From assembly GCA_008501635.1 (NCBI GenBank), contig QQUJ01000030.1, positions 1 through 64,000 of the forward strand: DNA of 64,000 nt. The letters run 5' to 3'. Under the pieces are notes generated by a model that made no database searches, was not told the DNA's origin, and saw nothing but the letters and a program-made list of their open reading frames with translations. The position numbers and the translations under genes were made by a program. The DNA is from Pseudomonadota bacterium. Its GTDB lineage: Bacteria > Pseudomonadota > Gammaproteobacteria > QQUJ01. Every line of letters begins with the position of its first letter. The first letter of the stretch is position 1. Below are positions 1,054 to 17,353 of the stretch, piece by piece.

Positions 1054-1659
1054 TCATTCTTCCCTTTCTATAGATGCGTGTGCACGCGTCTCATATGTTT
1101 GCACAATGTGCTCCGCCAAAACTGTGCTCGCGACAATAAGTCGGTCAACGTTCTCATGGAGCTCCAATTCTGACCTCCCGTAGGGATCTACGATTTCAGG
1201 TGAGCCGGACGGGAGAAATGCACCTAGCCAGATTACACGGGATGTGCAATTCGGAGCTGCGCGCGCAACCGAGTGCCAGTTATGGCGATCCATGATGATT
1301 ATTGAATCCGCCCACTCGAGATCCTCACGACTTACCGTATGCGATCGGTGTCCTTGTAGATCCCACCCAGTCCGGTTTCGAACGTATTCCACATAATCTC
1401 CAGGCGAGACGCGCCCCGATTGCCCAAAAAATCCCGCCGAGCGAATCTCCATGCCTATGCGGTTGCCAATTGCGTTGCGAAGCAACATGGCCACTAGTGG
1501 GCTACGATAGATATTTCCATAGCAAAGCACGAGAACCCGACGAAATACCAGCTGTCGCGCCCGCTCTTTGGATTGGATGCGAGCTCCGTAGAGCGCGATC
1601 CACGCCCGCGAGCGTTGATGGGCCCTGCGCAAAAGGCCGACCTTCATTGAATTCTTCAC
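1054..1659 (-). CDS. Low-molecular-weight protein-tyrosine phosphatase (Wzb-like)
   Basis: A 201-residue protein of the LMW-PTP family, which removes phosphate from tyrosines of bacterial BY-kinases and their targets during polysaccharide synthesis. The P-loop CX5R is at residues 46-52 (C-Y-G-N-I-Y-R, followed by SP). The catalytic aspartate is in the DPYG motif at about 158. The second P-loop position that is usually Cys (CxGNICRS) is Tyr here. An N-terminal extension of about 40 residues precedes the usual start. The gene follows the NAD-synthetase-like gene by 7 bases, so it is probably the end of the long minus-strand operon. Its likely partner is the tyrosine autokinase at 11.3-12.1 kb; that link is inferred. 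Confidence 0.85.
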   Translation of the reverse strand: MKNSMKVGLLRRAHQRSRAWIALYGARIQSKERARQLVFRRVLVLCYGNIYRSPLVAMLLRNAIGNRIGMEIRSAGFFGQSGRVSPGDYVEYVRNRTGWDLQGHRSHTVSREDLEWADSIIIMDRHNWHSVARAAPNCTSRVIWLGAFLPSGSPEIVDPYGRSELELHENVDRLIVASTVLAEHIVQTYETRAHASIEREE

Positions 1660-1666
1660 CTGCGCG

Positions 1667-2683
1667 TTAATCGGAGCGAACAGGGGCTAACTGTAACTCA
1701 GGGAGATCTTCCACAAGCAACGGTCGGACATGCAAATAACGGCTAGTGCGCCGTTTGGCCTCGATGTCGTGGTATACCCACTCGGCCTGTTGCTCGGTGA
1801 TTTCTAGTGCCTCTGCTAGTATCGCTGCTGATAAGCCGTGATTCTTCGCCCAAAGCGCCAGATCCATTTGGTGATACGGAAGCGCAAAATAAAACTCATC
1901 CTGCCCCTGTGGCATGCTGTAGGTATCCGTTGTCGGCGTAGCATTACAAATCTCTTCCGGTAATTGCAGATACCGAGCCATCGCATAGACCTGAGTCTTA
2001 TAGAGATGTGCGATAGGTTTGATGTCCGCCGAACCATCTCCGTTCTTTACGAAGAACCCTTGGTCGTATTCGAGACGATTGGGCGTTCCAATTACAGCAT
2101 AGTTAAGCCGATCGGCATGAAAATATTCCATGGTTTTACGTATGCGCTGTTTGAAATTGGTTGCGGCGACGATCTGCAAGTACTCCTTCAGTCCCAGACG
2201 CTTTTCCTGCAACTCTCCATTCAAGTTTTGTACCACCAGTTTGAAGTGGTTGATCTGTCCTTCCAGGCCACCGGCGATGACGATTTTGTTTTTCCAGCCG
2301 GGACTGTAATCGGGGAAAGTACGCTGTATGGCCTCATCGCGCCAGCGGTAGCAGCCGATGGCCTCCAGAGCAGGTGCGATATTTTCCACCCGGTATTCGA
2401 TGCTCAGGTGCTTGGCCAGTACCTCGCCGCGTTCGCCGGAGAATGACGAGGAATCCTGTTCCGGCAGCAGCAGACCGAAAACCTTGTCCCGGCCAACAGC
2501 GGACACGGCCAGTGCGGCACACACCGAACTGTCGATACCGCCGGACATAGCGATGACAAAGCCGCGCCGACGCAGGTCCTTGCGCAGGATTTCTCGCATG
2601 AGTTCGGCGATGCGCTGGTGCTCTGCTTCCAAGTCGAGGTTGAGGACGTCGCGTGACAGGGCTTGAGTTACGCTACTCATCAA
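1667..2683 (-). CDS. NAD synthetase (NadE)-like ATP-dependent amidotransferase
   Basis: A 338-residue protein of the adenine-nucleotide alpha-hydrolase (PP-loop) superfamily closest to ammonia-dependent NAD synthetase. The PP-loop SGGIDSS is at residues 47-53. The NadE segments GDGSADIKPIAHLYKTQVY and PTTDTYSMPQGQDE are recognisable. The usual GTGNKSE segment reads GTPNRLE, and the middle (about 125-170) is longer than in typical NadE. There is no glutaminase domain, so it would need free ammonia or a partner. Its place among acyl ligases, an ACP and an AsnB-like protein suggests amidation of a sugar or acyl precursor rather than housekeeping NAD synthesis. That is inference; plain NadE remains possible. 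Confidence 0.75.
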   Translation of the reverse strand: MMSSVTQALSRDVLNLDLEAEHQRIAELMREILRKDLRRRGFVIAMSGGIDSSVCAALAVSAVGRDKVFGLLLPEQDSSSFSGERGEVLAKHLSIEYRVENIAPALEAIGCYRWRDEAIQRTFPDYSPGWKNKIVIAGGLEGQINHFKLVVQNLNGELQEKRLGLKEYLQIVAATNFKQRIRKTMEYFHADRLNYAVIGTPNRLEYDQGFFVKNGDGSADIKPIAHLYKTQVYAMARYLQLPEEICNATPTTDTYSMPQGQDEFYFALPYHQMDLALWAKNHGLSAAILAEALEITEQQAEWVYHDIEAKRRTSRYLHVRPLLVEDLPELQLAPVRSD

Positions 2684-2721
2684 TGATGCTCCTGGGTGCC
2701 AAATGGGGCTTGGGAATCGAC

Positions 2722-3138
2722 TCAGTCCCGCAACCCGCGGCGTTTGTCGGTATCGATTACTTCCACGTTTAGACCCATGCCGGCGTAGACGAAAGCGATC
2801 AAGGCATCGTCAAAGGCTTCGCCTGGCTGAGGCGCAGCCAGGACACGGGCGCCTTTTGCAGCCAAGGCCTGAACTTCGGCGACAGTATCTCCGCCTTTAA
2901 AGCACAGATGGTGCAAGCCCTCTCCTCGCTTCAGGAAGTCTACTAGGGGGGAGTCGCGATGCGAAGGTTCTATCAGCTTGATATCCAGGGAATCCTCTTT
3001 AACCAGGAACTGTATGTTTACTTCCTGACGTGAATTAGTCACTTTGTCGGTCTTGACACGATAGCCGAACAACTCGCATAAGCGCTTAGTCGCATGGTCG
3101 AGGTTACGTACGGCGATACATACGTGATCCAATTGCAT
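2722..3138 (-). CDS. VOC (glyoxalase/methylmalonyl-CoA epimerase-like) protein
   Basis: A 138-residue protein starting MQLDHVCIAVRNLDHA, the first beta-strand and metal-binding His of the vicinal-oxygen-chelate fold. The second module holds GEGLHHLCFK with another ligand His, and the end reads GMGLNVEVID with the final Glu. The spacing resembles methylmalonyl-CoA epimerase, so an acyl-CoA or acyl-ACP epimerase is the best guess. The chosen ATG begins just past the end of the preceding ligase gene; an ATG at 3156 would overlap it. The position between an acyl ligase and the NadE-like gene fits one acyl-modifying pathway. The substrate is unknown. Confidence 0.72.
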   Translation of the reverse strand: MQLDHVCIAVRNLDHATKRLCELFGYRVKTDKVTNSRQEVNIQFLVKEDSLDIKLIEPSHRDSPLVDFLKRGEGLHHLCFKGGDTVAEVQALAAKGARVLAAPQPGEAFDDALIAFVYAGMGLNVEVIDTDKRRGLRD

Positions 3139-3139
3139 C

Positions 3140-4675
3140 TCAACTCTGCCTCTCAACCAGCATGAACCGACGCAGCTTGCCAGAGCCAGTACGAGGTAGC
3201 TTATCGGTAAAACATACTTCCCGCGGCACTTTGTAGGTCGCTAAATGCCGTTTGCAGTAAGCTTGCACCTGTCTTACCGTCAGCTTCTTCCCAGGTTTGG
3301 TCACAATGACAACACGAATAACCTGTCCGAGCAGATCATCGTGTATACCAACCGCTGCCGATTCCGCGACTTCTTCCAGTTCGCCGACAATCTCTTCTAT
3401 CTCGTTGGGGCTGATGCGATTGGCACCGGTCTTGATCATGTCGGTAGCTCTACCAACAATAGTTAGGTACCCCTCGTCGTCAAAATAACCCAGGTCGCCC
3501 GTATGCAACCAGCCACCGCGGATTACCTTATCGGTAATCTCTGGGTCTTCCCAATAACCCTGCATTATGTGTTCGCCCCTGGCACAAACCTCGCCTACGG
3601 TTCCCTGCGCCACAGGACGATCCTTCTCATCGACTATTCGAAGTTCGATACCGGGTATCGCAATACCGACGCTACCCAGCTTTTGGTCTAAACGCTCTGA
3701 GGGTAGGTATGTGAGTCGTGCAGTCGCCTCGGTTTGGCCATACATGACAATGAATTTCGCGGTAGGAACAGCGGATCGCACCTGACCAATAGCGTTGGGT
3801 ACCATAGCTCCACCGGCCTGAGTCAGATATCGGACGCTGCTCCAATCAAAATCGGCCATACTGGTTCGCGCTAGCAGCAGATAGTAGGTTGAAGGTACCC
3901 CCGAAAAACCCGTTACGCGTTCTTCCCCAATTTTCGCCAAGACGCTCTGCGGGTACATCAGGCTGTTCTCAAGCACCAACCGCGCGCCTACCCAAATATG
4001 GGTGTGAAGTATTGAGTTCCCATATGAGTAGTAGAAAGGTAGTACATTTAGGATGCTATCGTCTGATGTCAGCTCCAGGTAGCTTAAGACAGATTTCACA
4101 AGAGCCACCAAATTGCCATGGCTCAACATCACGCCTTTGGGTCGGCCAGTCGTGCCCGATGTGTAAATAATTGCCGCTAGATCTTCCGGCCGACATCCGA
4201 CAGGAAGATGATCATGCGCAGGTCGCGATGCGATAATATCATTCCACGATGCAACTGAATTGATGCCCTCCCGGGGGGGGCCTTCCCCTACTGAAATCCC
4301 GTGCGATAGCTCTTTCCCTTCACCCGTCAGCACCTGAAATTCCGGGTGGTTTCTTTGGGCGACAACCCAGCTAGCACCACAGTGATTTATCCAATTTGTG
4401 AGATCACGCGCCTTTGCGAGCATGTTCAACGCCACCACCACGCCACCCGCCGCAAGAGTACCGTAGTAAGCTGCTATGTATTCAGGAGAATTTTCGAGCA
4501 ATAGCGCTACGCGGTCGCCTTGTTTCAGGCCTCGGTCTTTCAGGTAGATGGAGAAGCATTGCGCCTGCCGCCACAGATCGTCATACGTTGTTTTGTTCCC
4601 TCGCAATACCACAGCTATTCGCTCATGATATGCACGGGAATTATTTTGTAGTGCATGAACTACGGATTGCGACAT
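3140..4675 (-). CDS. AMP-forming acyl-CoA/acyl-ACP ligase (first copy)
   Basis: A 511-residue ANL-superfamily adenylating enzyme. The A3 core YTSGTTGRPKGVMLSHGNL is near residues 170-190, with YGQTEATARLTYLP (A5), GWLHTGDLGYFDDEGYLTIVGRATDMIKTGANRISPNEIE (A7-A8, with the hinge) and PRTGSGKLRR with the A10 lysine. All catalytic motifs are intact and the length is normal. It activates a carboxylic acid as acyl-AMP and passes it to CoA or to a phosphopantetheine arm. The acyl carrier protein gene lies 8 bases upstream, which makes ACP loading plausible. Exosortase A loci often carry such a ligase, but the acyl substrate cannot be read from the sequence. Confidence 0.88.
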   Translation of the reverse strand: MSQSVVHALQNNSRAYHERIAVVLRGNKTTYDDLWRQAQCFSIYLKDRGLKQGDRVALLLENSPEYIAAYYGTLAAGGVVVALNMLAKARDLTNWINHCGASWVVAQRNHPEFQVLTGEGKELSHGISVGEGPPREGINSVASWNDIIASRPAHDHLPVGCRPEDLAAIIYTSGTTGRPKGVMLSHGNLVALVKSVLSYLELTSDDSILNVLPFYYSYGNSILHTHIWVGARLVLENSLMYPQSVLAKIGEERVTGFSGVPSTYYLLLARTSMADFDWSSVRYLTQAGGAMVPNAIGQVRSAVPTAKFIVMYGQTEATARLTYLPSERLDQKLGSVGIAIPGIELRIVDEKDRPVAQGTVGEVCARGEHIMQGYWEDPEITDKVIRGGWLHTGDLGYFDDEGYLTIVGRATDMIKTGANRISPNEIEEIVGELEEVAESAAVGIHDDLLGQVIRVVIVTKPGKKLTVRQVQAYCKRHLATYKVPREVCFTDKLPRTGSGKLRRFMLVERQS

Positions 4676-4683
4676 GACACAGA

Positions 4684-4956
4684 CTAGGCTGCTTTCTTGC
4701 GGCCGACAAATGCCACGAGATTGTCTACGGAATCCAAGTTTTCCGGTACCATTTCCGTATCGGCCACCTGAATCCCCAGTTCGTCCTCCAGAAAGAAAAT
4801 GACTTCCATAATTCCAGTGGAATCTATAATTCCTTTCTGTAGAAACGAATCACTATCTACGAGAGCCGATGGGTCATCTGTAAACAGGAAGTTCTCAAGA
4901 ATATAAGACCGCAATTGTTCTCTGACCGCCATTTCCATCCTCACATCTGTGTTCAT
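4684..4956 (-). CDS. Acyl carrier protein
   Basis: A 90-residue protein with the PP-binding fold. The phosphopantetheine site is I-D-S-T-G-I-M-E-V, where the usual DSL is DST; the Ser is present near residue 46. The following FFLEDELGIQVADTEM is the acidic helix II-III region. An in-frame ATG nine codons in (MAVREQLRSYILENF) is an alternative start. It sits between two AMP-forming ligases in the same orientation, so it is probably the acceptor for one or both. It is clearly not the housekeeping AcpP, which has a DSLD motif and sits in the fab cluster. Confidence 0.85.
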   Translation of the reverse strand: MNTDVRMEMAVREQLRSYILENFLFTDDPSALVDSDSFLQKGIIDSTGIMEVIFFLEDELGIQVADTEMVPENLDSVDNLVAFVGRKKAA

Positions 4957-5110
4957 TTATTCAAAGTTATTCGGCTTCTCTCGGAATGCTGCTCGTGCAT
5001 CTGATAAGTGTCGATGGCATCTGGGCGCACGCTTGGCCGTCCGGAGCCAATTACTTCAGCGCACTATCAGCAACCTGACGAAAGACGCCAAGCCGGGGAA
5101 CCCCATATAT

Positions 5111-6694
5111 TTATACAAGCTCCTTTTTACTGATCTTGTAATTCTGGTTAATCGGCAACCTTTCGGTGATTATTATATCCCGAGGTATCATAAAACTTTC
5201 CAGTTTCTTGGCTAATTCGCACTTCAGAGTACGTGTTTCCAGTTTGACGCTGCCTTCCTCCACAACGTAGGCGAGGATGGCCTGACCAAGTGTTTCATCC
5301 TCTACGCCTATTACTGCCGCTTCCGCCACTCCGGGGATGTTGCAGAGGGTAAATTCTATTTCCAAAGGGCTGACCTTTTCTCCGCGACATTTGATAATGT
5401 CGTCACTGCGGCCTTCGAAATACAGATAGCCTTCTTCGTCCATGTGGAACCAATCCCCGGTTCGGAGCACCTTTTCCCCCGGTATCGTTCCATCGACGAG
5501 CATCTCTAAAGTTTCTTCGGGTCTATCCCAATAGCCGCGCATAATATGTGGTCCCCGGACATGGAGGATTCCCCGTTCGCCCGGGCGCACTAGAACGCCC
5601 GTGGAATCCAGAACATAAGCTTCGGTACCCGGGATAGCCTTGCCGACAGAACCTGGTTTCTTTTCGATCATTTCCGGTTCGAGATAACTGACGCGCTTGC
5701 ATTCCGTCAGACCGTACATGCTGTATATCAGCGCATTTGGAAAAAACCCCCTCAGGCGCGGGATATGTTCGACCGGTAACGCCGCCGCGGTATTGGTTAT
5801 ACGAGTTACGTTGGGAAAACAGAGCGGGTTTCTTGCGTGTGCAGCGATAATCATTGAGTATATCGTTGGCACCCCGGGGAAGGTCGTCACTTCGTAATTC
5901 TGGACTCGCTGAAGCACATCCAGGTAATAGGTAAAGGAACGCTCAAGCACCAGCGTCGCACCCAGCTGTATACACATGAGCAACTGATAGAGTCCGTAAT
6001 CAAATGCCAGCGGTAACACGTTGACGACGACATCGTTCGAATCCATGCGCAAGTACTCGATAATGCTTTTGGCTGTGAAAAGCATGGATTGATGAGTTTG
6101 CATGACTCCTTTTGGATGACCGGTACTGCCCGATGTATAGATCAAGGCGGCCAAGTCGAGCGGGATAATAGTGGCCATCGTTGACTTGTTCTCTTTGCTC
6201 TCCAGAAGCTCTTCAATATGTTCGTATTCTGGCGCTCCGTCCGCACCTGGTGTCGCGGTTTTATTGCCTCCCGACACAATGAGATGAGTCAGTGTTGTGC
6301 AATGAGACAGTGCCTGCTTGTACACAGGTGCGAGTTGATATTCAGCCAGCAGGTGCCGCACCGAGCAATCGTTCAGAATGAACGCCAGCTTTTCTCCCTT
6401 TGTCTGCGGGTTGATCACCACAAAGACACCCCCCGCTTTAAGAACTCCATAGATGGCAACGACACAGTGCCAACTGTTCTCCATGAAGATCGCTACGCGA
6501 TCGCCACGCCGTAAACCTCTCTGTAGTAGCCCCGCAGCAAGGCTGGTGGAGCATTCATCGAGGTCCCTGTAGGTATACGGCTCACCGGCAACGATTATCG
6601 CTGTTTTGTCCGCCTCGGCGCGGGCCCAATGCTGCAGCGCCTCGTGAAGCAGGTTCTGTTGCTTTCCCGTTATGAAAGAATCGAGTTGGTGCAT
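5111..6694 (-). CDS. AMP-forming acyl ligase, exosortase A-associated type (second copy)
   Basis: A second ANL-family adenylating enzyme, 527 residues. It carries YTSGSTGHPKGVMQTHQSML (A3), YGLTECKRVSYLEPE (A5), TGDWFHMDEEGYLYFEGRSDDIIKCRGEKVSPLEIE (A7-A8) and NQNYKISKKEL near the end, where the A10 lysine belongs. The ATG at 6694 is preferred because AGGACA lies upstream; an in-frame ATG at 6733 lacks one. The arrangement with an ACP resembles the acyl-CoA ligase/ACP pairs known from exosortase A loci. Sequence differences from the first ligase suggest a different acyl substrate or a second step. A 154-base gap without a gene separates it from the ACP. Confidence 0.86.
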   Translation of the reverse strand: MHQLDSFITGKQQNLLHEALQHWARAEADKTAIIVAGEPYTYRDLDECSTSLAAGLLQRGLRRGDRVAIFMENSWHCVVAIYGVLKAGGVFVVINPQTKGEKLAFILNDCSVRHLLAEYQLAPVYKQALSHCTTLTHLIVSGGNKTATPGADGAPEYEHIEELLESKENKSTMATIIPLDLAALIYTSGSTGHPKGVMQTHQSMLFTAKSIIEYLRMDSNDVVVNVLPLAFDYGLYQLLMCIQLGATLVLERSFTYYLDVLQRVQNYEVTTFPGVPTIYSMIIAAHARNPLCFPNVTRITNTAAALPVEHIPRLRGFFPNALIYSMYGLTECKRVSYLEPEMIEKKPGSVGKAIPGTEAYVLDSTGVLVRPGERGILHVRGPHIMRGYWDRPEETLEMLVDGTIPGEKVLRTGDWFHMDEEGYLYFEGRSDDIIKCRGEKVSPLEIEFTLCNIPGVAEAAVIGVEDETLGQAILAYVVEEGSVKLETRTLKCELAKKLESFMIPRDIIITERLPINQNYKISKKELV

Positions 6695-6820
6695 ATTTGT
6701 CCTACGCAGTCCTTTTGGTTCATCCTTTTGCATTTGTAAGCGCGCGGAGCTTCACTCTGTTCTTCACAGTGGAAACTGTCTGCCCATTTACTGCAAACAG
6801 TGTGAGGCACAACAATCGCT

Positions 6821-8803
6821 TCACGCTCCCAATACCGTCATTGGTCTCATTGTTTCGGCTGAATTTTTACTCTTGAAATTCCTGTGAAACGATTCGACGA
6901 AATGGTAGTGCCACAACTGAGTCGAAAGAATACCAACCAGCGCCATGTTGTCTTTATGACCGATGGCACGACCTTTTTGAACTTTTCGATGCAGTCGTCC
7001 GACTTTTGCTGCATCGAAATAGCCGTACCGCGATACGGTTTCCGGGCTCAGCAGTTCAGCAACGTAATCGGTATTTCCCCCACTGAAAAACGCAGGAATA
7101 TCGGGAGCACGGTAAGGCTGCTTCGGTCGTTCCGTGATTCCTCGCGGGAGGAAACGACGTGTACTCAGTTTGAGTAAAAACTTTTCGTTCAGAACCCGCA
7201 TTTTGTGCTTTGGATGAAGTGTATTGGCGAACTCTATCACGCGGTGATCGAGATACGGGAAACGACCTTCCACCGAGTTGGCCATCAACATGCGATCGCC
7301 CTGAGCGCAGAGCAGATAACCCGCCATCAGCGTCTTTGACTCTATGTACTGGGCGCGGTTGAAGGGGTGCCACTTCTCAATTCCCGCGGGTAGCTGTTGT
7401 TTGAGGCACTCAATCGCATCCTCTTTCAATCGGTCGTTCAATTGGTCAGAGAAAAACGTTTTGCACTGGGCCGTGGTTTGCCACCGGGTAAAGTGACTGA
7501 AAAATGGCGAATCCGGCTGATCCAATGCCACTCCAAAAAAATTCTTTAAGTAGGTCAGCCCCTGTGCTTGCGTAATATTCAGATACGGATAGAGCCGCTT
7601 CAACAACGTCGGGCGCCAGCTCGACTCCGGTTGTTTCGCCCAAAAACCTCGTATCTTGCCTTCCTTGAATATGTCGTAGCCTCCAAGCACCTCATCCGAG
7701 CCTTCTCCGGTCAACACCACCTTATAGTTCTGCTCATGAACCAAACCGGAAAGCATGCCCATGGGTACCGGTGCCGTTCTCAGCACGGGCATCTCGGTAT
7801 GCAAAATAGTATGAAAAAATGCTTCCCCTACGGATTTTGCGTCGCAGTGCACCCTGCTGTGGTTGGCATTGACATGCTCGATCATTTGCTGCTGGTAACC
7901 GCTCTCGTCCAACCCTTTGTCATCAAATCCAATAGAAAAGGTGCGCAATGATGCATTCCCGAAATGATGAATCAACGCAACCAGGGCCGATGAATCGAGC
8001 CCACCTGAAAGGTATGCTCCTACCGGGACATCCGCGCGCAACCGAATACGCGTAGCATCCACCAACAACGCTAGCAACTCCTCCGCAAGTTCGGTGTCCG
8101 CCCCCTCACGGTAACGACCGTCCTCCGGAAAGGTCCATTCCCAGTAACATTTGCGGCTAATACGTCCACGCTCGGCTATCACCATTTCACCAGGCGCCAC
8201 TTCTTCCACACCTTCGAACACTGTATTTGGGCTGATCGGAGACCAAAAGGTCATCAACTGGTCCAACGACTTTGCATTTAGTTCTGGAGCTGTGTCGAAT
8301 ACTGCTAAAATCGCTTTGATCTCGGAACCAAAAACCAATCGTCCCGCTTTCTTCGAGAAAAAAAGCGGTAATATTCCAGCACGATCCCGGGCAAGAACCA
8401 AACGACGTTTTTCCACGTCCCACAGTGCAATGGCAAATTGCCCATTGAGATGATGGACAAAATCATCCCCATACTCTTCGTAGAGGTGAACCAATACCTC
8501 TGTATCGGACTGGGTATAGAAATGATGACCGCGGGCAGTGAGCTCGGCACGTAACTCTACGTAGTTGAATATCTCCCCATTGAAAATCACCCAGACAGAT
8601 TCATCCTCGTTATGGATGGGCTGTTTCCCTCCCTCGAGATCGATAATGCTGAGACGGGCGTGCCCGAGTCCTATCGCTCCGTCACGATAATACCCGGTTC
8701 CATCGGGGCCTCGATGGTGCAATAAATGCACCATGGCCTGCAGTTCCCGATGCTCTACGGGAGGCAGCTCCTGTAAATTGAGAATGCCCGCAATGCCGCA
8801 CAC
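6821..8803 (-). CDS. Asparagine synthase-like glutamine amidotransferase, exosortase A-associated
   Basis: A 660-residue class II glutamine amidotransferase/asparagine synthase. The N-terminal Ntn glutaminase starts MCGIAGILN with nucleophile Cys2, followed by LLHHRGPDGTG and NGEIFNY. The synthetase half carries the PP-loop motif YLSGGLDSSALVAL near residue 265 and GEGSDEVLGGYDIF. Instead of making free asparagine, relatives in EPS and O-antigen loci amidate a uronic acid or a related precursor. The position directly after the deacetylase (17-base gap) matches the amidotransferase that commonly accompanies exosortase A. The C-terminal region past about residue 560 is longer than in classical AsnB. 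Confidence 0.85.
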   Translation of the reverse strand: MCGIAGILNLQELPPVEHRELQAMVHLLHHRGPDGTGYYRDGAIGLGHARLSIIDLEGGKQPIHNEDESVWVIFNGEIFNYVELRAELTARGHHFYTQSDTEVLVHLYEEYGDDFVHHLNGQFAIALWDVEKRRLVLARDRAGILPLFFSKKAGRLVFGSEIKAILAVFDTAPELNAKSLDQLMTFWSPISPNTVFEGVEEVAPGEMVIAERGRISRKCYWEWTFPEDGRYREGADTELAEELLALLVDATRIRLRADVPVGAYLSGGLDSSALVALIHHFGNASLRTFSIGFDDKGLDESGYQQQMIEHVNANHSRVHCDAKSVGEAFFHTILHTEMPVLRTAPVPMGMLSGLVHEQNYKVVLTGEGSDEVLGGYDIFKEGKIRGFWAKQPESSWRPTLLKRLYPYLNITQAQGLTYLKNFFGVALDQPDSPFFSHFTRWQTTAQCKTFFSDQLNDRLKEDAIECLKQQLPAGIEKWHPFNRAQYIESKTLMAGYLLCAQGDRMLMANSVEGRFPYLDHRVIEFANTLHPKHKMRVLNEKFLLKLSTRRFLPRGITERPKQPYRAPDIPAFFSGGNTDYVAELLSPETVSRYGYFDAAKVGRLHRKVQKGRAIGHKDNMALVGILSTQLWHYHFVESFHRNFKSKNSAETMRPMTVLGA

Positions 8804-8820: not shown

Positions 8821-9726
8821 CTAAGCTACCGCCTTTGTATTTGCAGGCGTCTTCTCGGGAAACAGCTCAAGCTGTTCCAGAACATTCTTCATTGGAGCAA
8901 AACGAAAGTCTTTCAGTAATCTTCTCAATCTTGATTCGCAGAGCTGAAGATTGTGATAGTGACGAAACCGCGAAAGCGTACCTGCTCTAATGCGGGGTTG
9001 CCCAGGGTCGAGTTCCCAGGGATGGAGGTAAAAAACAAATGGCATGGCATTACGTTTGTTGATGCTGCCAAGTCCCCATCTGGAAAACGCGTAGGGATAG
9101 ATTCTGAAGTAACCGCCTCCAGCGATTGGTATCGTCATGCCGGACCATCTGATCGTGGAAAGGGGGAACTCGACAATCTCCTTGCCGGCAGGGGTTTTCA
9201 TGTGGTGCGGCCATCGGGCAGCGCCAGGTATACCGTACCGATCATGGCGCACCGGAAAGATGCTGGAGTCATACAGGAACCCACACTCCACCAGGGTATC
9301 CAAGGCCCACTGTGAACTCTGGGTAATCGAATAACTGGCCGCACGGTAACCAAATACTGCTTTTTGTGCAGTCTGTTCAAGTATGGACTTGGCACGCTGA
9401 GTCTCTTCTCTGAATACATCTATGTTCTGCAAGAAAATCAGCTGATGGCTATAGCCATGACAGGCCAGTTCGTGACCCCGGTCGACAATCTCTCGCACCA
9501 GCGAGGGATGTCGCTCTGCGACCCAACCCAGTACAAAGAAGGTGGCTTTGATCCCATCCTCATCAAAAAGATCAAGCAGACGATGAGTATTTGATTCGAC
9601 GCGCGATTCCATTTCCTGCCACTCGGCAGGATTGATCACATCGCTGAAGGCTGCAACATGATAGTAATCCTCAACATCGACTGTGAGTGCGTTGAGTTGT
9701 GATTGGTTAGTGGCGTTGGTGGACAT
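8821..9726 (-). CDS. XrtA-system polysaccharide deacetylase
   Basis: A 301-residue NodB-type polysaccharide deacetylase of the exosortase A-associated group. LTVDVEDYYHVAAFSDV holds the catalytic and metal-binding Asp pair, ATFFVLGWVAERHP follows, and HELACHGYSHQLIF has the two metal-binding His. GYRAASYSI and FVFYLHPWELDPGQPRI close the active site and the DUF3473-type tail. No signal peptide or membrane helix is obvious, so cytoplasmic or membrane-face action on the repeat unit is likely. An upstream in-frame ATG at 9789 would add 21 residues. It fits removal of N-acetyl groups during EPS assembly. Confidence 0.88.
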   Translation of the reverse strand: MSTNATNQSQLNALTVDVEDYYHVAAFSDVINPAEWQEMESRVESNTHRLLDLFDEDGIKATFFVLGWVAERHPSLVREIVDRGHELACHGYSHQLIFLQNIDVFREETQRAKSILEQTAQKAVFGYRAASYSITQSSQWALDTLVECGFLYDSSIFPVRHDRYGIPGAARWPHHMKTPAGKEIVEFPLSTIRWSGMTIPIAGGGYFRIYPYAFSRWGLGSINKRNAMPFVFYLHPWELDPGQPRIRAGTLSRFRHYHNLQLCESRLRRLLKDFRFAPMKNVLEQLELFPEKTPANTKAVA

Positions 9727-9834
9727 TACTACTGGCGCATTGGGTTTCGGATGCCTATGCAATGCAAAAGGCGACTCCGCATTCTGCAATATTCAAAGCA
9801 GTTCAATGACATTAGACGAACCTTCGGGCGCGCA

Positions 9835-11262
9835 TCAGAATGTAAGAGTTGCACTCAAAGTCGCCGAGTTTTCGACATACTCCCGCGTTGAAACGTCAGA
9901 TGATTGATCTGCTCGTCGCAAATAGAAATTACCTTGCACCCGTCGTCCGAATCGGCGTTCGACGCCCAGATTCACCCGTTTGAGTTCGTCGGTGGCATTG
10001 GTACCCGCAAGCTGATTCTCCTGACGTCCACCGCTTAGACTGAAGGTCGTCAGTGATCCCGCCCGCCAGATGACACTCAACTCCATACCTTTGAGGCTTT
10101 CGCGATTGTTGCTTGTTTGATAACTACGATCTTCATCGTAAACGCTGACTCGGAATGTGGTCTTCGGACGCTCAAGTGTTGCGCCAATTTGCGCGCGCTC
10201 GCGCAGATAGACCTCCGGCGCCACACCGCCCAGGCCCGGCCCGGGCAGAATCGATTCAGGATCTCGCGGGTCGATCTCCAATCGGGTTTCTGCATACGTT
10301 ATGTAGTCTTCGGTATAGAGGGCTTCTGTTCTCCAGCGTCTACCCTGCTGTAACCAGCGTAGCGAGGCGGTATTGCCGAAAACGCGCTCGCCCGCGAGCA
10401 CTTCCAATTGATACCGCTCCGCATGCTGGGAGCGCAGTCCCACCATCCAGTAGCTATCGTCCGGCGCATCGCTACCATCGGAGAGTCGAAAGGTGTTTTT
10501 CTCGTCGCCGACAAGCACGATGAACCGTGAGCGGGCAAACACGGGAATGCCGACTTCCAGCGTTCCTTGTTCGAAACGAATCTCCTCCTGACTATCGAAA
10601 TCGATCCGTGACTGGCGGTACTTAGCGGCCCAATAGAGGTGTCCTGGTTGGGAGGTGCTTTCAACGACGGCTGCTATCGCCTCCTGAGTACTGTCAGTCA
10701 ACGAAGCATCATCATAGTCGATCCTGCTGGTGGCATAGCGCAGGTCTGCCTGCGCCCGTTCCGAGACGCGGAACGTCCACCGCGGGCTTAGATAGGCGGT
10801 ATTCTCATCGGTAAGGTTACCACTTCCTGCTATGTTGCTCGTGGGAATGGGTGCTGTGGTATCGATCACCTGTTGGCGCACGGACAGCAGCGCGTCGAGC
10901 GAAAAAGTGTCGGGCACCAACCAGGCCGTCGCACGACCGGCCAACTGATGATAGGTTTCGTCCAAACTCGAATCATCACGGTAGTCGAGAGCTTGAAGGC
11001 GGTAGGTAATGTCGGTTTCAAAGCGTGGTCCGTCGTATGAGGCGTCTATACCAGGCGTGACCTCCAGCACTCGATCCGACACCTCATTGCCGGGAGTGGC
11101 AAGATTTATGTTATCGGAATGGCCAAGTCCCAAAGTGACGCTGGGTGTTATTCGCCAGTCCGCCGACTGCGCAGCCAACGGCGCCAATCCAGTCAGCAGC
11201 GCGAACGCCAGCAGCCCTGAGTGCGTAAAGGGAAAAGATTGGACACGTGGTGTCGCGTTCAT
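9835..11262 (-). CDS. PEP-CTERM-system outer-membrane beta-barrel protein (TIGR03016 type)
   Basis: A 475-residue exported protein. The start at 11262 follows GGAG seven to ten bases upstream and gives a signal peptide (FTHSGLLAFALLTGLAPLAAQSA) cleaved before DWRITPSVTLGLGHSDNI. The rest is alternating short strands such as RWRTEALYTEDYITYAETRLEI, ending in a C-terminal strand with final Phe (SATLSATLTF), typical of BAM-inserted barrels. This type of barrel is conserved in exosortase A loci and probably forms the outer-membrane exit for the polysaccharide, since the Wza-like protein of this locus is short. Its role in secretion is inferred from context. It overlaps no neighbour after start correction. 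Confidence 0.85.
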   Translation of the reverse strand: MNATPRVQSFPFTHSGLLAFALLTGLAPLAAQSADWRITPSVTLGLGHSDNINLATPGNEVSDRVLEVTPGIDASYDGPRFETDITYRLQALDYRDDSSLDETYHQLAGRATAWLVPDTFSLDALLSVRQQVIDTTAPIPTSNIAGSGNLTDENTAYLSPRWTFRVSERAQADLRYATSRIDYDDASLTDSTQEAIAAVVESTSQPGHLYWAAKYRQSRIDFDSQEEIRFEQGTLEVGIPVFARSRFIVLVGDEKNTFRLSDGSDAPDDSYWMVGLRSQHAERYQLEVLAGERVFGNTASLRWLQQGRRWRTEALYTEDYITYAETRLEIDPRDPESILPGPGLGGVAPEVYLRERAQIGATLERPKTTFRVSVYDEDRSYQTSNNRESLKGMELSVIWRAGSLTTFSLSGGRQENQLAGTNATDELKRVNLGVERRFGRRVQGNFYLRRADQSSDVSTREYVENSATLSATLTF

Positions 11263-11278
11263 ATTCTCTTCTCCACCA

Positions 11279-12130
11279 TCATTCGTTGAGTTCATTGGCC
11301 GGACCATAGTAACCTCCGTAGGTAGAACTACCCCTCGCGCCTTTACAACGGTTTAGCACCATCCCCACCAATTTATCATCATCGATGAGCGCAATTGCTT
11401 CCCGAAGTGTAGTCTGGGTGGTAAACCCCTCATTCACGATCATCAGGACCTGGCCTACCAACTGAGCCATGACGACTGCCTGGCTGGTAGCGAGTAATGG
11501 CGTGGAGTCGAAAAGAATTATCCGGTCCTCATACCTGTTCACCAGCTCGATTACCACACGATCCATCTGCTCGCTTGACAGGAGCTCCGTTGTGTTGTGC
11601 TTAGTCGTTCCGGCCGGTATGAAACGCAGTTTTTCCACATTGGTCTTGCCAATCACCTCGCTTAGATCCATCTCCGGATCGGCCAACAGGTCTGTCAATC
11701 CTTTCGCTTCAGTGGCATTGAACAAGTGACTCATCGATCGACGACTCAAATCCGAGTCTACCAAGAGCACCGTGCTGTCCTGTTCCTGGGCAATGCTGAT
11801 CGCCAGATTCAATGATGTGAATGTCTTACCTTCGCCTTCCAACGCGCTGGTAACAACAACCGCGTTCCCACGTTCGACCAGCGGTGCTCCCTTGCCCAGG
11901 GCACTCATAAGCAGCAAGCGCTTGACTATTCGGTACTCCTCCGCAGTGCGACTCTGCATGCTTCCAGGAGTCAAAAATCCCCTTTTCTTGAGCTCACTAA
12001 AATTCAGTACAAACTCGCTTTGCGTGGCTGGTTTCTCGTTGCTTGATCTCATGCGCCTCGCAGGCACTAATCTGTCTTGCATCGAAGCGTTTTCAAGCTT
12101 TTGTATCGCACGTTCGAAGAGATCCGCCAT
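11279..12130 (-). CDS. XrtA-associated tyrosine autokinase (BY-kinase, CpsD/CapB type)
   Basis: A 283-residue cytoplasmic P-loop kinase of the BY-kinase family. Walker A is TSALEGEGKTFTSLN near residue 95, Walker A' is VLLVDSDLSRRS and Walker B is RIILFDSTPLLATSQA. The C-terminal tail contains the tyrosine cluster S-T-Y-G-G-Y-Y-G, the expected autophosphorylation region. The kinase domain is separate from the Wzz-like membrane protein, which lies 3 bases upstream. The two would act together to set chain length, with the phosphatase at 1.1-1.7 kb as the opposing enzyme. Family motifs are intact. Confidence 0.9.
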   Translation of the reverse strand: MADLFERAIQKLENASMQDRLVPARRMRSSNEKPATQSEFVLNFSELKKRGFLTPGSMQSRTAEEYRIVKRLLLMSALGKGAPLVERGNAVVVTSALEGEGKTFTSLNLAISIAQEQDSTVLLVDSDLSRRSMSHLFNATEAKGLTDLLADPEMDLSEVIGKTNVEKLRFIPAGTTKHNTTELLSSEQMDRVVIELVNRYEDRIILFDSTPLLATSQAVVMAQLVGQVLMIVNEGFTTQTTLREAIALIDDDKLVGMVLNRCKGARGSSTYGGYYGPANELNE

Positions 12131-12133
12131 TTC

Positions 12134-13723
12134 TTAGCCTCCCAGCCGCTGAACTATAGCAAGCAAGTCCAGGCCGGTTATCTGCATGTACGCAGCCAGT
12201 CCAAACGCTGGAACGATCAGCAGTGCACAGAACACCAGCGCCGTGTTGGCCAAGCCTCTTTTTATTGACGCACCTCTGGAAACCACTAGTGATACACCGC
12301 CGAAAACCGGTCGGCCCGATACTTCACGCAACATTCGGCGCCCATAGATTACCGGCCATAATTGCGAAAGCGCGAATGCTACACCGATACCCCCACCAAC
12401 GCCCGCCACGAGAATTCCTGCCGTCAATGGCAATCGGGGCGGTGAAATGGCTTTTACCGGGGTACGCGGCGGATTGATAATCTGAAACTTGACGTCCTCA
12501 CCACTCTGTTCGACATCCTCTGAGATCCGGGCCGATTCGCGCCGGGTTACCAAAGAATTGTATTGATCGCGATAGATCTGGTAATTGCGGTTCAGGGTTT
12601 GCAGCTCTGCTTCCACTTTGGTCAGCGTCTCGATCTGGCGTTGAAGGTTTTCCACTCTGGATGCAAACTCCTGGCGTCTTACCTGCAATCCGGCTATTTC
12701 TGCCTCTACTCCGCCCAGTGATGCGCGCAACTGCTGGTAGAGTGGATTCGGTATCGATCCACTGCCGGCGGTACCTTGTGCTATGGACTGCTCTTCGTGG
12801 ATCCGCTGCGTCTCCAACTGCTCTATGCTGCGCTGTGCCTCGATGACATCCGGATGTTCCGTGGTATAACGCAACAACAACTCATCCAGGCGGCGCTGCA
12901 ACGCCAACAAACGCTCCTCGGTAGGTGTCTGTGCAAGAGTGCCCTCGGCGGTCACTGCGCGTTGTCCCGATGGTGTGCCCTGCAACTGTTGCTGTAGAGC
13001 CTGCCTGCGAAAGCTGGCTTCGCGTAATGCCAGCTCCACGCCCTCAAGATTGGTTCGTGCTGCTTGCAGCCGTTGATAGAAACTAGCTTCCTGCTCCGGC
13101 AACAAATTGATGTTCTGCCGTTTGAACTCTTGCAAACGTTTTTCGGCATCTGTCAGCCGTGACTCATACTCTTTGATCTGTTGATCGAGGAACTGCTGCG
13201 CCGTCTCAGAACGTGTGCGCTGATCACCGGCTGCGTCCTTTACAAACGCATCGAGCAAAGCCTGCACTATCCGTCGTGCCGTTTCCGCATTGTTGTGGCG
13301 AGCCGAGATGGTATACAGATCCGGGCTGCTGGGACGCGATGGCCGTACTGCATGAGATTGCTGCAACGAAATATTGCGTTGCAGTTCGCCAAGTACCGCT
13401 TCGAATTCATTCTGCGTCTTGACATCATGATCGAGATCCGTTGTGCGCATCACCTGTTCGAGATTTGGGCGGCTAAGCAGGTGTTGCGACATCAGCCCAA
13501 GTTTCTGAGACACATCCACATCGACCGTCAACCCCCGCAGCAGAGGGCGTAACAATGACGCCGTATCGACATAGACCACGGCTTCCGATTCATAAACATT
13601 GGGCACCTTGGCGAGCCCGTACCAACCGAGCACACAAATCAGCCACGCTGTCACCAACGCAACCCAGCGGAAGCGCCACATTCCGCGTATATAGACCAGT
13701 AACTGTTCGATAAGCTGCTGCAT
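12134..13723 (-). CDS. XrtA-system polysaccharide chain-length determinant (Wzz/PCP family)
   Basis: A 529-residue inner-membrane polysaccharide co-polymerase. An N-terminal helix (WVALVTAWLICVLGWYGLA) is followed by a large periplasmic region rich in coiled coil (about residues 170-390). The co-polymerase Pro-rich segment IINPPRTPVKAISPPRLPL leads into the next helix, and another hydrophobic segment (ALVFCALLIVPAFGLAAYM) sits near the C-terminus. This architecture is typical of the exosortase A-associated chain-length family. It needs the separate autokinase downstream because no kinase domain is fused. It lies between the export lipoprotein and the kinase in the operon. Confidence 0.9.
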   Translation of the reverse strand: MQQLIEQLLVYIRGMWRFRWVALVTAWLICVLGWYGLAKVPNVYESEAVVYVDTASLLRPLLRGLTVDVDVSQKLGLMSQHLLSRPNLEQVMRTTDLDHDVKTQNEFEAVLGELQRNISLQQSHAVRPSRPSSPDLYTISARHNNAETARRIVQALLDAFVKDAAGDQRTRSETAQQFLDQQIKEYESRLTDAEKRLQEFKRQNINLLPEQEASFYQRLQAARTNLEGVELALREASFRRQALQQQLQGTPSGQRAVTAEGTLAQTPTEERLLALQRRLDELLLRYTTEHPDVIEAQRSIEQLETQRIHEEQSIAQGTAGSGSIPNPLYQQLRASLGGVEAEIAGLQVRRQEFASRVENLQRQIETLTKVEAELQTLNRNYQIYRDQYNSLVTRRESARISEDVEQSGEDVKFQIINPPRTPVKAISPPRLPLTAGILVAGVGGGIGVAFALSQLWPVIYGRRMLREVSGRPVFGGVSLVVSRGASIKRGLANTALVFCALLIVPAFGLAAYMQITGLDLLAIVQRLGG

Positions 13724-13748
13724 CGCGGGTATCCGTTCGCTATCTACC

Positions 13749-14369
13749 TCAGAACCAGGACTCTGGGACTATCAAAATATCACCGGGCTGCATCACGACA
13801 TTGGCGGAGATATCACCCTTCTCCAATAGATCTTCCAGGCGAACCCGAAACGATTTCTGCTGTCCCTGGGGACCGCGCACAATGGTCGCGCGATTGCCCG
13901 CCGCAAACTCTGTCAATCCTCCGACTGCGATGATTACATCCAGAACCGTCATGTTGACGCGAAAGGGGATAGAGCGAGGTTGGGCAGCCTGGCCAATGAC
14001 GCGAATCTGCTCACTGGAACTACCGACGAAACTGTTGACAGTAACAGTGACGATGGGATTTTTCACGTAGCGCGAGAGACGACTCTCAACATCCCGCGCC
14101 AGTTCCGTTGGGGTTTTACCAGCCGCCTGCACGTCTTCCACCAACGGGGTTGTTATCCTGCCATCCGGACGTACCGGCACAGTAACCGAGAGATCTGTGT
14201 TCCCCCAGACAAATACATTCAATTGATCACCTGGGCCAATCGTGTAGCTTGACTCGCTGGGCGTCGGCGACGCCGAGATCGCAGGCAACTCCGGCGCCCC
14301 TGCGCAGGCGGCCAGAAGCACCACCATACCTACAATCAAACCTCTTTCCGCGATTTGTACGACACTCAT
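13749..14369 (-). CDS. XrtA/PEP-CTERM-system polysaccharide export protein (Wza-like)
   Basis: A 206-residue lipoprotein. The start at 14369 follows AGGAGG at six bases. The signal peptide ends in a lipobox, VVLLAACAGAP. The Poly_export domain begins SYTIGPGDQLNVFVWGN, and a SLBB-like domain follows with IRVIGQAAQPRSIPFR and MQPGDILIVPESWF. It is much shorter than Wza (about 380 residues) and lacks the C-terminal helix that forms the Wza pore, so it cannot by itself be the outer-membrane channel. The beta-barrel at 9.8-11.3 kb is the likely partner. Confidence 0.9.
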   Translation of the reverse strand: MSVVQIAERGLIVGMVVLLAACAGAPELPAISASPTPSESSYTIGPGDQLNVFVWGNTDLSVTVPVRPDGRITTPLVEDVQAAGKTPTELARDVESRLSRYVKNPIVTVTVNSFVGSSSEQIRVIGQAAQPRSIPFRVNMTVLDVIIAVGGLTEFAAGNRATIVRGPQGQQKSFRVRLEDLLEKGDISANVVMQPGDILIVPESWF

Positions 14370-14441
14370 GATCATCCTCCTAACAAATCCGACCAGGCAC
14401 ACCCTGTTTCGGTCATAGCCGCAAGCCCACTGAATGCATCA

Positions 14442-16013
14442 CTAACACCAGGATTGGGCAGCCGCATTACCAATCGCATGTTCCAACTGTCGCATGAGAG
14501 TTGGCTCAGCACCAGCGAGAAACGCCTGCAATGTTTTGCGACTGTCCGCCGCCTCTGCAGGGCCGACAGTGGTGACCACAATCGATGCCGCGTCGGTTCG
14601 CCCACAGATCAAACCGCGCAATCCAAGCAACTTTGCATTCGTGGCCACAGCGGCGTTGTTACCCGCCACACGATACCAGGTCCAGATAACCCGACGTTGA
14701 CCGGATGGCGAGGCGACCAGGATCTCCCTTATTGGGATCACTGTATCTCCTGCTTCGATTTGCCGATACTCGTCGGATAGGAACCGCCAACTCTCCGAGT
14801 CGAAGGGGGAATTGACCCACGCAACGGCTTCGTGGCCGGGCCGCTGAGAGTAATATAGAGCAATCTGCACAAGTACAGGCCGATCACCGCTATTGATATA
14901 GGTACCGGTAATCTCATCGTCTGCACCGGTAAATCTGCCACCACTCCTATGTACCTCCCGGGTTTCAAATGATACCCACTCACCCAATCGGGAAGGCGGG
15001 GCCAACACACGGTCTGCCGCAACCACAGGGGCTGCCATCAAGACGGATACGCCAACCGGGACTAACAGGGCAGCTGCCATCGCCATACCTACCACCAGAC
15101 CCATTGAGGCGCGGGCAGGCGGAGCCTTGTTTTTCTTTGCAGTGCCCTCACCAGTCACTAACCATCGCCGCGGCATGAGGTGGCTGGCAGCCAGGAAGAA
15201 AACCAGCATTCCGACTCCGAACAACATCCATCCCAGGGAAACGTGGTCTTCCTTGACAAAATAGTGCTGCATATCTGTCATTGCACCGGCGACTACCACG
15301 ATGAGGATACGTATCACATTCAAAAGAAAGGACATGCCGACGGCGCTGGCGAACAACAGGATACCCGGCCCGACGCGCAGCCCCGTCCATCCAGCGAAAA
15401 GCAACGCCAGGGGCATAGCCACCACCAGTTGACGCATACCCGTGCAATTGTCCGCGATATAGAATTTCCCCACTGACAGCGTAATGGTGCTTCCCTCCAG
15501 AAGGGCTGTGATCCCACCGAAACCCAAGAGCCAGGTAACAACGTGAGCGGTGCCGAGACGCAATGGCTCGTTAAATACCGACCACACGGGTATTCCGAAC
15601 ACCAGCAGCACCAGAGGCAGCCAGAGCCGACGTACGCTGTGCCAGCCAGATACCGCAAGAACCAGGGAGGGGAATAAAAGCCAAAACGCCAAACGGGCAC
15701 CCACTTCAATCAGAAGCAGCGAAGAAACTCCCCAGATGAGAGCGGTCGTCACCAGTGCGGCAGCCCCCGGCAGATTGGGGCGAATACCGAATGCATCAGG
15801 CTCACGCCAAACCGTGCGACCCGCGAGCAACAGTGACAGGACGAGCAACAGACTGCCGTGAGAGTAGTCGACGGTATCGCTCGAGAGCCACAACTCAATC
15901 AGACCAGCCAACGTATCCCGATACGCAACGGCGGTGAGCAGCACCAAAGCGGCCAGCACCGCGATCGGCGCAGATCGTGATTGCAGCACCAAATTGGCCG
16001 TTGTGGCATTCAC
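14442..16013 (-). CDS. xrtA: Exosortase A with fused EpsI domain
   Basis: A 523-residue polytopic membrane protein. The N-terminal 300 residues are exosortase with about eight hydrophobic helices. The catalytic triad is visible: Cys190 in ADNCTGMRQ, Arg235 in LNVIRILIVV and His257 in KEDHVSLGW. From about 310 on comes an EpsI (DUF3485) domain (APPSRLGEWVSFETREVHR, VLVQIALYYSQRPGHEAV, VIPIREILVAS). Exosortases cut and sort proteins with a PEP-CTERM tail; the probable substrate here is encoded at 23.1-23.9 kb. The gene overlaps prsR by 4 bases, so the two are probably translationally coupled. Confidence 0.93.
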   Translation of the reverse strand: MNATTANLVLQSRSAPIAVLAALVLLTAVAYRDTLAGLIELWLSSDTVDYSHGSLLLVLSLLLAGRTVWREPDAFGIRPNLPGAAALVTTALIWGVSSLLLIEVGARLAFWLLFPSLVLAVSGWHSVRRLWLPLVLLVFGIPVWSVFNEPLRLGTAHVVTWLLGFGGITALLEGSTITLSVGKFYIADNCTGMRQLVVAMPLALLFAGWTGLRVGPGILLFASAVGMSFLLNVIRILIVVVAGAMTDMQHYFVKEDHVSLGWMLFGVGMLVFFLAASHLMPRRWLVTGEGTAKKNKAPPARASMGLVVGMAMAAALLVPVGVSVLMAAPVVAADRVLAPPSRLGEWVSFETREVHRSGGRFTGADDEITGTYINSGDRPVLVQIALYYSQRPGHEAVAWVNSPFDSESWRFLSDEYRQIEAGDTVIPIREILVASPSGQRRVIWTWYRVAGNNAAVATNAKLLGLRGLICGRTDAASIVVTTVGPAEAADSRKTLQAFLAGAEPTLMRQLEHAIGNAAAQSWC

Positions 16014-17353
16014 CGCTCGACTCCGAGGCGACGCATCAACTCATAAAGCGTCGGCCGTGTCACTCCAAGCAACTCAGCCGCTCGAGAAATGTTGCCCTGA
16101 CTGTAATCCAGCGCTTTACGCAGTGCCCTTCCTTCCGCAGCCTGCCTGACAGAGCGCAGATCCAGGGATTCCTGGGTCGCACTGGCTGCCCGAAGCTCAA
16201 GGTCTTCGGGTGTAATATCCGGGCCTTGGGTCATAATCACCGCGCGTTTGACACGATTATCCAATTCGCGGACATTGCCTGGCCAGGCGTACCCCTCCAT
16301 CGCTCGCAGTGCCTCGGCGGTGAATCCCGCCAGTGAGCGATGCATGTCCGCCGCGTGTTGGGCGAGAAAACTCCTCGCCAGCATAACCACGTCGCCTTGT
16401 CGCTCTCGCAGTGGAGGGATGGGTATTGAGACCTCGGACAACCGATAGTAGAGATCTTCCCGGAATTCCCCTTCGGCAATCATCTCTTTGAGATCACGAT
16501 GAGTGGCGCAAAGCACCCGGGTTTCGACGGGGATCTCCTGTCGCCCGCCCACGCGCTCGATCACGCGCTCCTGAAGAAATCGCAACAACTTGGCTTGAAG
16601 CGCAGCCGGCAGATCCCCAATTTCGTCAAGAAACAGGGTTCCCTCATGGGCCAGTTCTATTTTTCCCGGGGTTCGCTTGATGGCACCGGTAAAGGCGCCT
16701 TTTTCGTGACCGAACAACTCGCTCTCCAGCAGCTGCTCCGGGATCGCGGCACAGTTGATGGCGATAAAACGACCTGACGCAAAAGGGCTGAGATCATGCA
16801 TGGCGCGGGCAAAGAGTTCCTTTCCGGTGCCGCTTTCGCCGATTAGCAGAACAGTCGCGTTGGCAGGGGCGACCCGCTCCACAAGCTCGCAGACCCTCGT
16901 CATCTCAGGACTTCCGGCCACTATTCCCTTTAGTGGTGATGCCGGTTTGTTCTCCGCGAGTCGGCGATTCTCCGCTTCGATCTCATAGAGATAGAGTGCG
17001 CGCTCCACGACAGTTCTCAACAGATCGGGATCAACCGGCTTCTGGTGATAATCGTAGGCACCCATCGAGATGGCCGACAGCGCGTGATCGCGAGAGTCGC
17101 TGCCGGTGACGACGATTACTTTGGTGTTGGGCGCGAGTTCACGAATCTGTTGAAGTGCTGCAAGACCTTCGCTTGCGTTTCCCGGATCCGGCGGTAATCC
17201 CAGATCCAATAAAACCACATGGGGGTCGTACACCTCGATTGCCGAGATTCCACTGCTGCGATCAGATGCCGTTTGAACCTGGATTCCGTCAAAACTCCAT
17301 TTGAGTTGCTTGCATAGCCCCTCATCGTCATCGATGACCAGAAGACGATGCAT
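16010..17353 (-). CDS. prsR: PrsR, PEP-CTERM-box sigma-54 response regulator
   Basis: A 447-residue NtrC-type activator. The receiver domain has Asp50 (VVLLDLGLPP) and the conserved Lys of HQKPVD. The AAA+ domain has Walker A GESGTGKE at 171-178, the sigma-54 contact loop GAFTGA at 218-223 and Walker B GTLFLDEIGDLP. The Fis-type helix-turn-helix ends the protein (GNISRAAELLGVTRPTLYELMRRL). Members of this family control exosortase A loci and PEP-CTERM genes with the sensor PrsK, encoded here at 18.8-20.9 kb. All residues for phosphorylation and sigma-54 use are present. Confidence 0.93.
   Translation of the reverse strand: MHRLLVIDDDEGLCKQLKWSFDGIQVQTASDRSSGISAIEVYDPHVVLLDLGLPPDPGNASEGLAALQQIRELAPNTKVIVVTGSDSRDHALSAISMGAYDYHQKPVDPDLLRTVVERALYLYEIEAENRRLAENKPASPLKGIVAGSPEMTRVCELVERVAPANATVLLIGESGTGKELFARAMHDLSPFASGRFIAINCAAIPEQLLESELFGHEKGAFTGAIKRTPGKIELAHEGTLFLDEIGDLPAALQAKLLRFLQERVIERVGGRQEIPVETRVLCATHRDLKEMIAEGEFREDLYYRLSEVSIPIPPLRERQGDVVMLARSFLAQHAADMHRSLAGFTAEALRAMEGYAWPGNVRELDNRVKRAVIMTQGPDITPEDLELRAASATQESLDLRSVRQAAEGRALRKALDYSQGNISRAAELLGVTRPTLYELMRRLGVER

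Follow-up and report, generated by a model that had tools for sequence, protein, structure and literature searches.

A conserved quartet of carrier-protein and probable amidation genes, with an added ligase and VOC protein, in an exosortase-type exopolysaccharide operon

The stretch of DNA analysed here, referred to as the window, comprises 64,000 nucleotides of a gammaproteobacterial genome (Pseudomonadota bacterium, QQUJ01; assembly GCA_008501635.1, contig QQUJ01000030.1, forward-strand positions 1 to 64,000) and carries a gene cassette next to an exopolysaccharide (EPS) and exosortase operon. In order of transcription, all on the minus strand, the genes encode an AsnB-type glutamine-dependent amidotransferase (6821-8803; 660 aa), a first AMP-forming ligase (ligase 1; 5111-6733; 540 aa), an acyl/peptidyl carrier protein (ACP; 4684-4956; 90 aa), a second AMP-forming ligase (ligase 2; 3140-4675; 511 aa), a methylmalonyl-CoA-epimerase-like protein with a vicinal oxygen chelate (VOC) fold (2722-3156; likely ATG start at 3138), a NadE-like N-type ATP pyrophosphatase of the NH3 type (1667-2683; likely ATG start at 2680) and a Wzb-like low-molecular-weight (LMW) protein tyrosine phosphatase (1054-1659). 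Open reading frames, profile matches and motifs agree that every gene named in the initial annotation is present and intact on this strand. Intergenic gaps in the cassette measure 7-38 bp, apart from the two that flank ligase 1, which are wider (87 and 154 bp). The core of the cassette is a conserved quartet consisting of the AsnB-type amidotransferase, the ACP, an AMP-forming ligase and the NadE-like protein (NF002048). Base 1 of the contig (C30) is also the first base of the window, and the view downstream of the phosphatase gene ends there.

The AsnB-like protein scores 485 bits against TIGR01536 (cut-off 267), matches PF00733 and PF13537, and keeps the N-terminal catalytic Cys (MCGI). It fails TIGR03108, the XrtA amidotransferase model (422 versus 817 bits); its nearest solved relative is the 'hydroxyamidotransferase' 7ylz, and its orthologues adjoin NadE-like genes in other loci. 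In both ligases (PF00501/PF13193) the phosphate-binding loop and C-terminal catalytic Lys are preserved; with 434 and 383 bits neither passes TIGR03098, the XrtA acyl ligase model (592 bits). Thus, the cassette proteins share superfamily and genomic setting with the XrtA-associated ligase and amidotransferase, but lie well under the respective cut-offs. The ACP, with its Ser in GIIDSTG, has no Pfam match at E 0.001; its best NCBIfam match is the ornithine-lipid carrier NF052616, at 57 bits under the cut-off of 130, and it matches structures of peptidyl carrier proteins, resembling peptidyl and D-alanyl carriers. The ACP family is strongly conserved (58 aligned sequences).

The NadE-like protein passes NF002048/PRK00876 (499 bits; cut-off 313), and the NadE catalytic positions SGGIDS, GTPNxxE, GDGxAD, K229 and PTxDT are invariant across 22 relatives. 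Its predicted structure (pLDDT 87) finds as best folds the nicotinamide mononucleotide (NMN) synthetase of Francisella tularensis (3fiu) and PH0182 (2e18), with Z 28.0. It shares fold and catalytic motifs with these NH3-dependent nicotinamide adenine dinucleotide (NAD) and NMN synthetases; unlike them, it has a conserved three-strand insertion of ~55 residues (about 110-165 of the model), other genomic partners and a separate canonical NadE in the same genome. Since there is no glutaminase domain, the earlier label 'NadE-like amidotransferase' stands in its first half only: the protein is an NH3-dependent-type synthetase and not an amidotransferase by itself. The canonical glutamine-dependent NadE (546 aa) lies on another contig (C18), ruling out the NadE-like protein as sole NAD synthase of the cell. 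Because a full-length canonical NadE is also encoded by at least 36 of the genomes of 45 relatives, as counted from the listed matches, NAD synthesis for the cell is probably not the task of the NadE-like protein, and the simplest reading is that of an amide-forming ligase for another carboxylate.

These 45 relatives, obtained by scanning with the NadE-like protein, are 50-72% identical to it and span about ten phyla (Pseudomonadota, Thermodesulfobacteriota, Myxococcota, Planctomycetota, KSB1, Gemmatimonadota, Krumholzibacteriota, Spirochaetota, Verrucomicrobiota and Fibrobacterota). In 25 of them AsnB, ACP and ligase genes all lie within 10 kb of the NadE-like gene, and most of the others are near contig ends. 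The orders AsnB-ACP-ligase-NadE, AsnB-ligase-ACP-NadE, AsnB-NadE-ACP-ligase and NadE-ACP-ligase-AsnB all occur. Four genomes whose flanks are complete or almost so have a solitary NadE-like gene; two of them, G062 and G064, encode the AsnB-ACP-ligase trio at a separate site, and such co-occurrence without linkage indicates that function, and not linkage alone, keeps the quartet together. As the scan is biased toward near relatives, an even draw of 398 Pseudomonadota genomes was added. The NadE-like family is found in 15 of these, the window's own genome included, and in all 14 other carriers the gene lies within ~1.5 kb of the quartet ligase and/or AsnB; wider regions around these carriers reveal further quartet members. 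The linkage of the quartet is not due to chance, and the genes behave as a functional unit, as had been proposed, both among the relatives and in the even draw. Long frames around NadE or AsnB (G244, G057) were considered as Rosetta-stone fusions and rejected, as they resembled open-frame artefacts. A search of a phage collection returned nothing beyond weak cyanophage matches, namely annotated NAD synthetases of Synechococcus phages S-SSM7 and S-SSM6a (H121-H123; 37% over 35% of the NadE-like query).

The two ligases fall on opposite sides of the ligase tree, and each type alone serves quartets elsewhere. Ligase 1 ('type 1') is sister to the ligase of locus L054 (support 100/100) within the clade to which the rhizobial ligases belong, whereas ligase 2 ('type 2') groups with the quartet ligases of L039, L081, L046, L048, L050 and L061 (96/91) and is the usual ligase type of gammaproteobacterial quartet loci. 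Among the quartet loci collected, both types occur together in the window only, and no close relative with both ligases was found. The NadE, AsnB and ACP of the window are closest to those of type-2 quartets, so that ligase 1 looks like the added one. Ligase 1 is adenylation-domain-like, its nearest solved relatives being adenylation domains of nonribosomal peptide synthetases. The Asp in its substrate motif (FDYGLYQ) was dismissed as proof of an amino-acid substrate, since this position varies between D, S, G and N within the clade. Base composition was likewise rejected as a sign of horizontal import of ligase 1 or the VOC gene: GC content, overall and at third codon positions (GC3), is unremarkable throughout the cassette, apart from the low-GC ACP gene.

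The VOC protein fails the methylmalonyl-CoA epimerase model TIGR03081 (59 versus 115 bits). Upon alignment to VOC structures, including methylmalonyl-CoA epimerase matches, H11, Q49, H83 and E132 stand at metal-ligand positions. A VOC gene lies beside none of the other quartet loci collected, and among the loci compared a second ligase together with a VOC gene occurs in this genome only. The LMW phosphatase (PF01451, 68 bits; gathering threshold 23.2) has the CX5R (LCYGNIYRSP) and VDP motifs. It is present as named, but lies outside the quartet and is probably the partner of the EPS tyrosine kinase (11279-12130), thus belonging more likely to the circuit of that kinase than to the cassette.

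The operon hosting the cassette (8821-17353, minus strand) runs from an XrtA-type polysaccharide deacetylase through genes for an outer membrane protein, the tyrosine kinase, a chain-length determinant, an export protein and the exosortase (14442-16013) to PrsR, with PrsK further upstream on the same strand. TIGR03006, TIGR03016, TIGR03018, TIGR03007, TIGR03027 and TIGR02915 pass their cut-offs, and with PrsK, PrsR, chain-length determinant, export protein and deacetylase all over cut-off this is a PEP-CTERM/EPS exosortase locus. The exosortase, which has a fused EpsI domain, passes the general signatures TIGR04178 and PF09721 and is closest to XrtW and XrtA, but falls under both cut-offs (161 versus 425 bits for XrtW; about 154-157 versus 208 bits for XrtA, TIGR03109). 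The label 'exosortase A' in the initial annotation therefore needs correction; the locus is otherwise XrtA-type.

Across the even draw, an exosortase is present in 2 of the 14 other carriers of the NadE-like gene versus 79 of the 383 genomes without it, and thus there is no phylum-wide association between quartet and exosortase. These counts rule out an exosortase-specific module; moreover, 79 of the 82 exosortase genomes among the 398 have no NadE-like gene. The higher count in the biased scan (29 of 45) reflects mainly a gammaproteobacterial lineage in which the quartet recurs inside EPS loci, as in L039, L047, L081 and L129, where it sits directly behind the deacetylase. Assigning the unit to exosortase A loci, as was proposed, finds no support: the quartet mostly occurs without any exosortase and stands alone on rhizobial megaplasmids. 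In relatives the genes do occur without xrtA, but they stay together and are not scattered. Hence the cassette is a free-standing operon recruited into the EPS locus of the window, and the general role of the quartet is probably broader than that of a protein anchor.

Free-standing asnB-acp-ligase-nadE operons are found on megaplasmids or plasmids of Sinorhizobium meliloti (pSymB; L112), Nitratireductor (L113) and Mesorhizobium ciceri (L115). The window has the same four homologues on one strand, contiguous but for the inserted second ligase and VOC gene. Like the window, the S. meliloti operon encodes a DSTG carrier, a NadE-like protein (55% identical to that of the window) and a ligase in the same large clade as ligase 1; unlike the window, it has one ligase, no VOC protein and no adjacent EPS or exosortase genes. 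In strain 1021, pSymB has the carrier at one place only, adjacent to the ligase. A 2009 paper on SMb20651 reportedly places an asparagine synthetase and an NAD synthetase in that operon and describes the carrier in fatty acylated forms. The sequence records carry no old locus tags; from the replicon, the uniqueness of the carrier on pSymB and the ligase-ACP pairing we strongly infer that the carrier and ligase of the pSymB operon are SMb20651 and SMb20650. The ligase SMb20650 is cotranscribed with the carrier SMb20651, which is acylated upon co-expression with AcpS in E. coli; SMb20650 cannot replace FadD and makes no long-chain acyl-CoA in vivo (PMC7232532). Closer to the setting of the window, the gammaproteobacterial EPS/exosortase loci L039 and L081 have the order deacetylase-AsnB-ACP-ligase 2-NadE, and in L039 an LMW phosphatase follows NadE; in contrast to the window, both have a single ligase and no VOC gene. 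A literature search found no paper describing the gene set. The initial annotation had regarded the set as unmatched: its four-gene core matches the S. meliloti operon, while the second ligase and VOC gene stay unmatched. The four-gene operon was known, and the S. meliloti carrier and ligase are published.

Neighbouring genes give clues to the product. A HemK/PrmC-family methyltransferase gene lies by the quartet in L116 (10050-10742), L114 (14920-15882), L118 (14067-15065), L123 (14335-15027), L115 (12139-12864) and L075 (12892-13740), at 33-58 bp in five loci and at about 1.2 kb in L115; the genomes are Alphaproteobacteria and one Geobacteraceae. The two proteins checked, from L116 and L075, are under the PrmC cut-off, and the gene is probably a PrmC paralogue. 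Known HemK/PrmC enzymes transfer a methyl group to the glutamine side-chain amide, and these neighbours fit a carboxamide product. Glycosyltransferases within 4 kb of the quartet in 11 loci, together with FemAB-type transferases (TIGR03019) near it in L040, L041, L056 and L070, fit glycan tailoring. A TIGR03019 FemAB protein (337 bits), a second EPS-type AsnB and EPS glycosyltransferases are also encoded in the genome of the window, on contig C15.

Taken together, we consider it moderately likely that the quartet, once taken up by an EPS operon of the exosortase/PEP-CTERM type and enlarged by ligase 1 and the VOC protein, serves carrier-bound activation and the formation of carboxamides for a substituent of a polysaccharide or glycolipid. 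By this reading, a ligase would activate an acyl or aminoacyl carboxylic acid by adenylation and load it onto the ACP, the loading step being probable. AsnB would convert a carboxylate to a carboxamide with glutamine-derived ammonia, and the NadE-like enzyme would likewise turn a carboxylate into a carboxamide, cleaving ATP to AMP and pyrophosphate and using free or AsnB-derived ammonia. The amide, carrier-bound or released, may then be placed on a sugar of an exported polysaccharide or a surface glycolipid. The two ligases, being of different clades, could load two acids onto the one carrier, the VOC protein might epimerise the thioester alpha carbon in the manner of methylmalonyl-CoA epimerase, and the LMW phosphatase would act on the tyrosine kinase of EPS export. 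Acyl or amide tailoring, as first suggested, persists as the best reading of the chemistry; attachment to the EPS is something that we infer. Some observations weigh against this reading: several quartets, that of S. meliloti among them, adjoin no polysaccharide genes, and the VOC gene is not a conserved partner of the quartet. Moreover, the NadE-like protein keeps most canonical catalytic residues and is by sequence compatible with NAD synthesis, and ligase 1 sits with nonribosomal adenylation domains while the S. meliloti carrier reportedly bears fatty acyl groups, so that the acid may be acyl or aminoacyl.

Part of this evidence would also suit a lipid pathway, in which the fatty acid activated by ligase and carrier is destined for a membrane lipid or an acylated small molecule, AsnB and the NadE-like enzyme amidate the head group, and the EPS setting is incidental. 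The ornithine-lipid carrier as best NCBIfam match of the ACP, the acylation of SMb20651 and the S. meliloti operon without adjacent glycan genes point in this direction, and specialised pairs of acyl carrier protein and synthetase have been described for sphingolipids (PMC9386255). Given, however, that SMb20650 produces no long-chain acyl-CoA in vivo and that quartets repeatedly have glycosyltransferase and EPS export genes as neighbours, we regard this as unlikely. A similarly low probability attaches to the idea that the cassette builds the linking sugar or anchor for exosortase-joined PEP-CTERM proteins, with AsnB forming a uronamide in the manner of WbpS, ligase and carrier supplying an amino acid, and a FemAB/VimA-like enzyme transferring it. 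In the excerpts of Veith et al. (2020; PMC7468200) considered here, VimA/FemAB and the TIGR03108 AsnB are proposed as anchor makers in exosortase bacteria, and the Wbp/Vim system of Porphyromonas gingivalis, where an AsnB-type enzyme amidates a sugar acid and an aminoacyl group is passed to a surface glycan, offers a parallel to the cassette; neither a carrier protein nor an AMP ligase nor a NadE-like enzyme is mentioned in these excerpts. The FemAB genes adjoining four quartets, the FemAB and AsnB genes on C15 and the likeness of the ACP to peptidyl and D-alanyl carriers agree with anchor synthesis. Against it speak the score of the window AsnB under the TIGR03108 cut-off and the lack of exosortase enrichment, neither exosortase nor NadE-like gene needing the other.

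A role of the NadE-like protein as an additional NAD or NMN synthase, placed here by co-regulation or chance, appears very improbable. Family name (NF002048 is called NAD(+) synthase), catalytic residues and the NMN synthetase among its closest folds all speak for it, but the canonical NadE of this genome and most relatives, the close linkage with AsnB, carrier and ligase genes across phyla, and the conserved insertion absent from solved NadE structures do not. Returning to the recruited amidation cassette, a more specific version of it strikes us as possible, if rather doubtful: NF002048 proteins would mostly be the second amidating enzyme of a carrier cassette, and in the window two ligases, two acids and one carrier, with epimerisation by the VOC protein, would yield an undescribed EPS substituent. 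NadE-like genes, present in about 4% of the sampled Pseudomonadota and in many other phyla, both in plant symbionts and in slime-forming bacteria, are routinely annotated 'NAD(+) synthase'; if the amidation reading is right, most carriers bear a false label, and a widespread route to carboxamides has escaped notice. The product of the quartet could be sought in S. meliloti, a tractable laboratory organism.

Some further features were observed around the quartet and in the window. A family of ~350-aa proteins (L040, 10988-12040; L044, 11000-12073; L066, 10942-12069; L075, 15209-16240) is encoded directly after the NadE-like gene in three of the four loci; it has no Pfam or NCBIfam match, and a sub-threshold GNAT match appears in L066 only. 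Between PrsK and PrsR, an open reading frame of 268 aa (17755-18561) has no NCBIfam match and is weakly similar to open reading frames near the quartets of L056 and L111/L129. A 266-aa protein with a C-terminal PEP-CTERM-like signal (23076-23876) is encoded next to an EPS glycosyltransferase gene. Finally, contig C15 of the same genome (L086, L087), a separate 35 kb, carries the other half of an EPS system of the exosortase type, comprising the TIGR03019 FemAB and AsnB genes together with TIGR03087-like and other glycosyltransferases, a PaaK-like ligase and an O-ligase.

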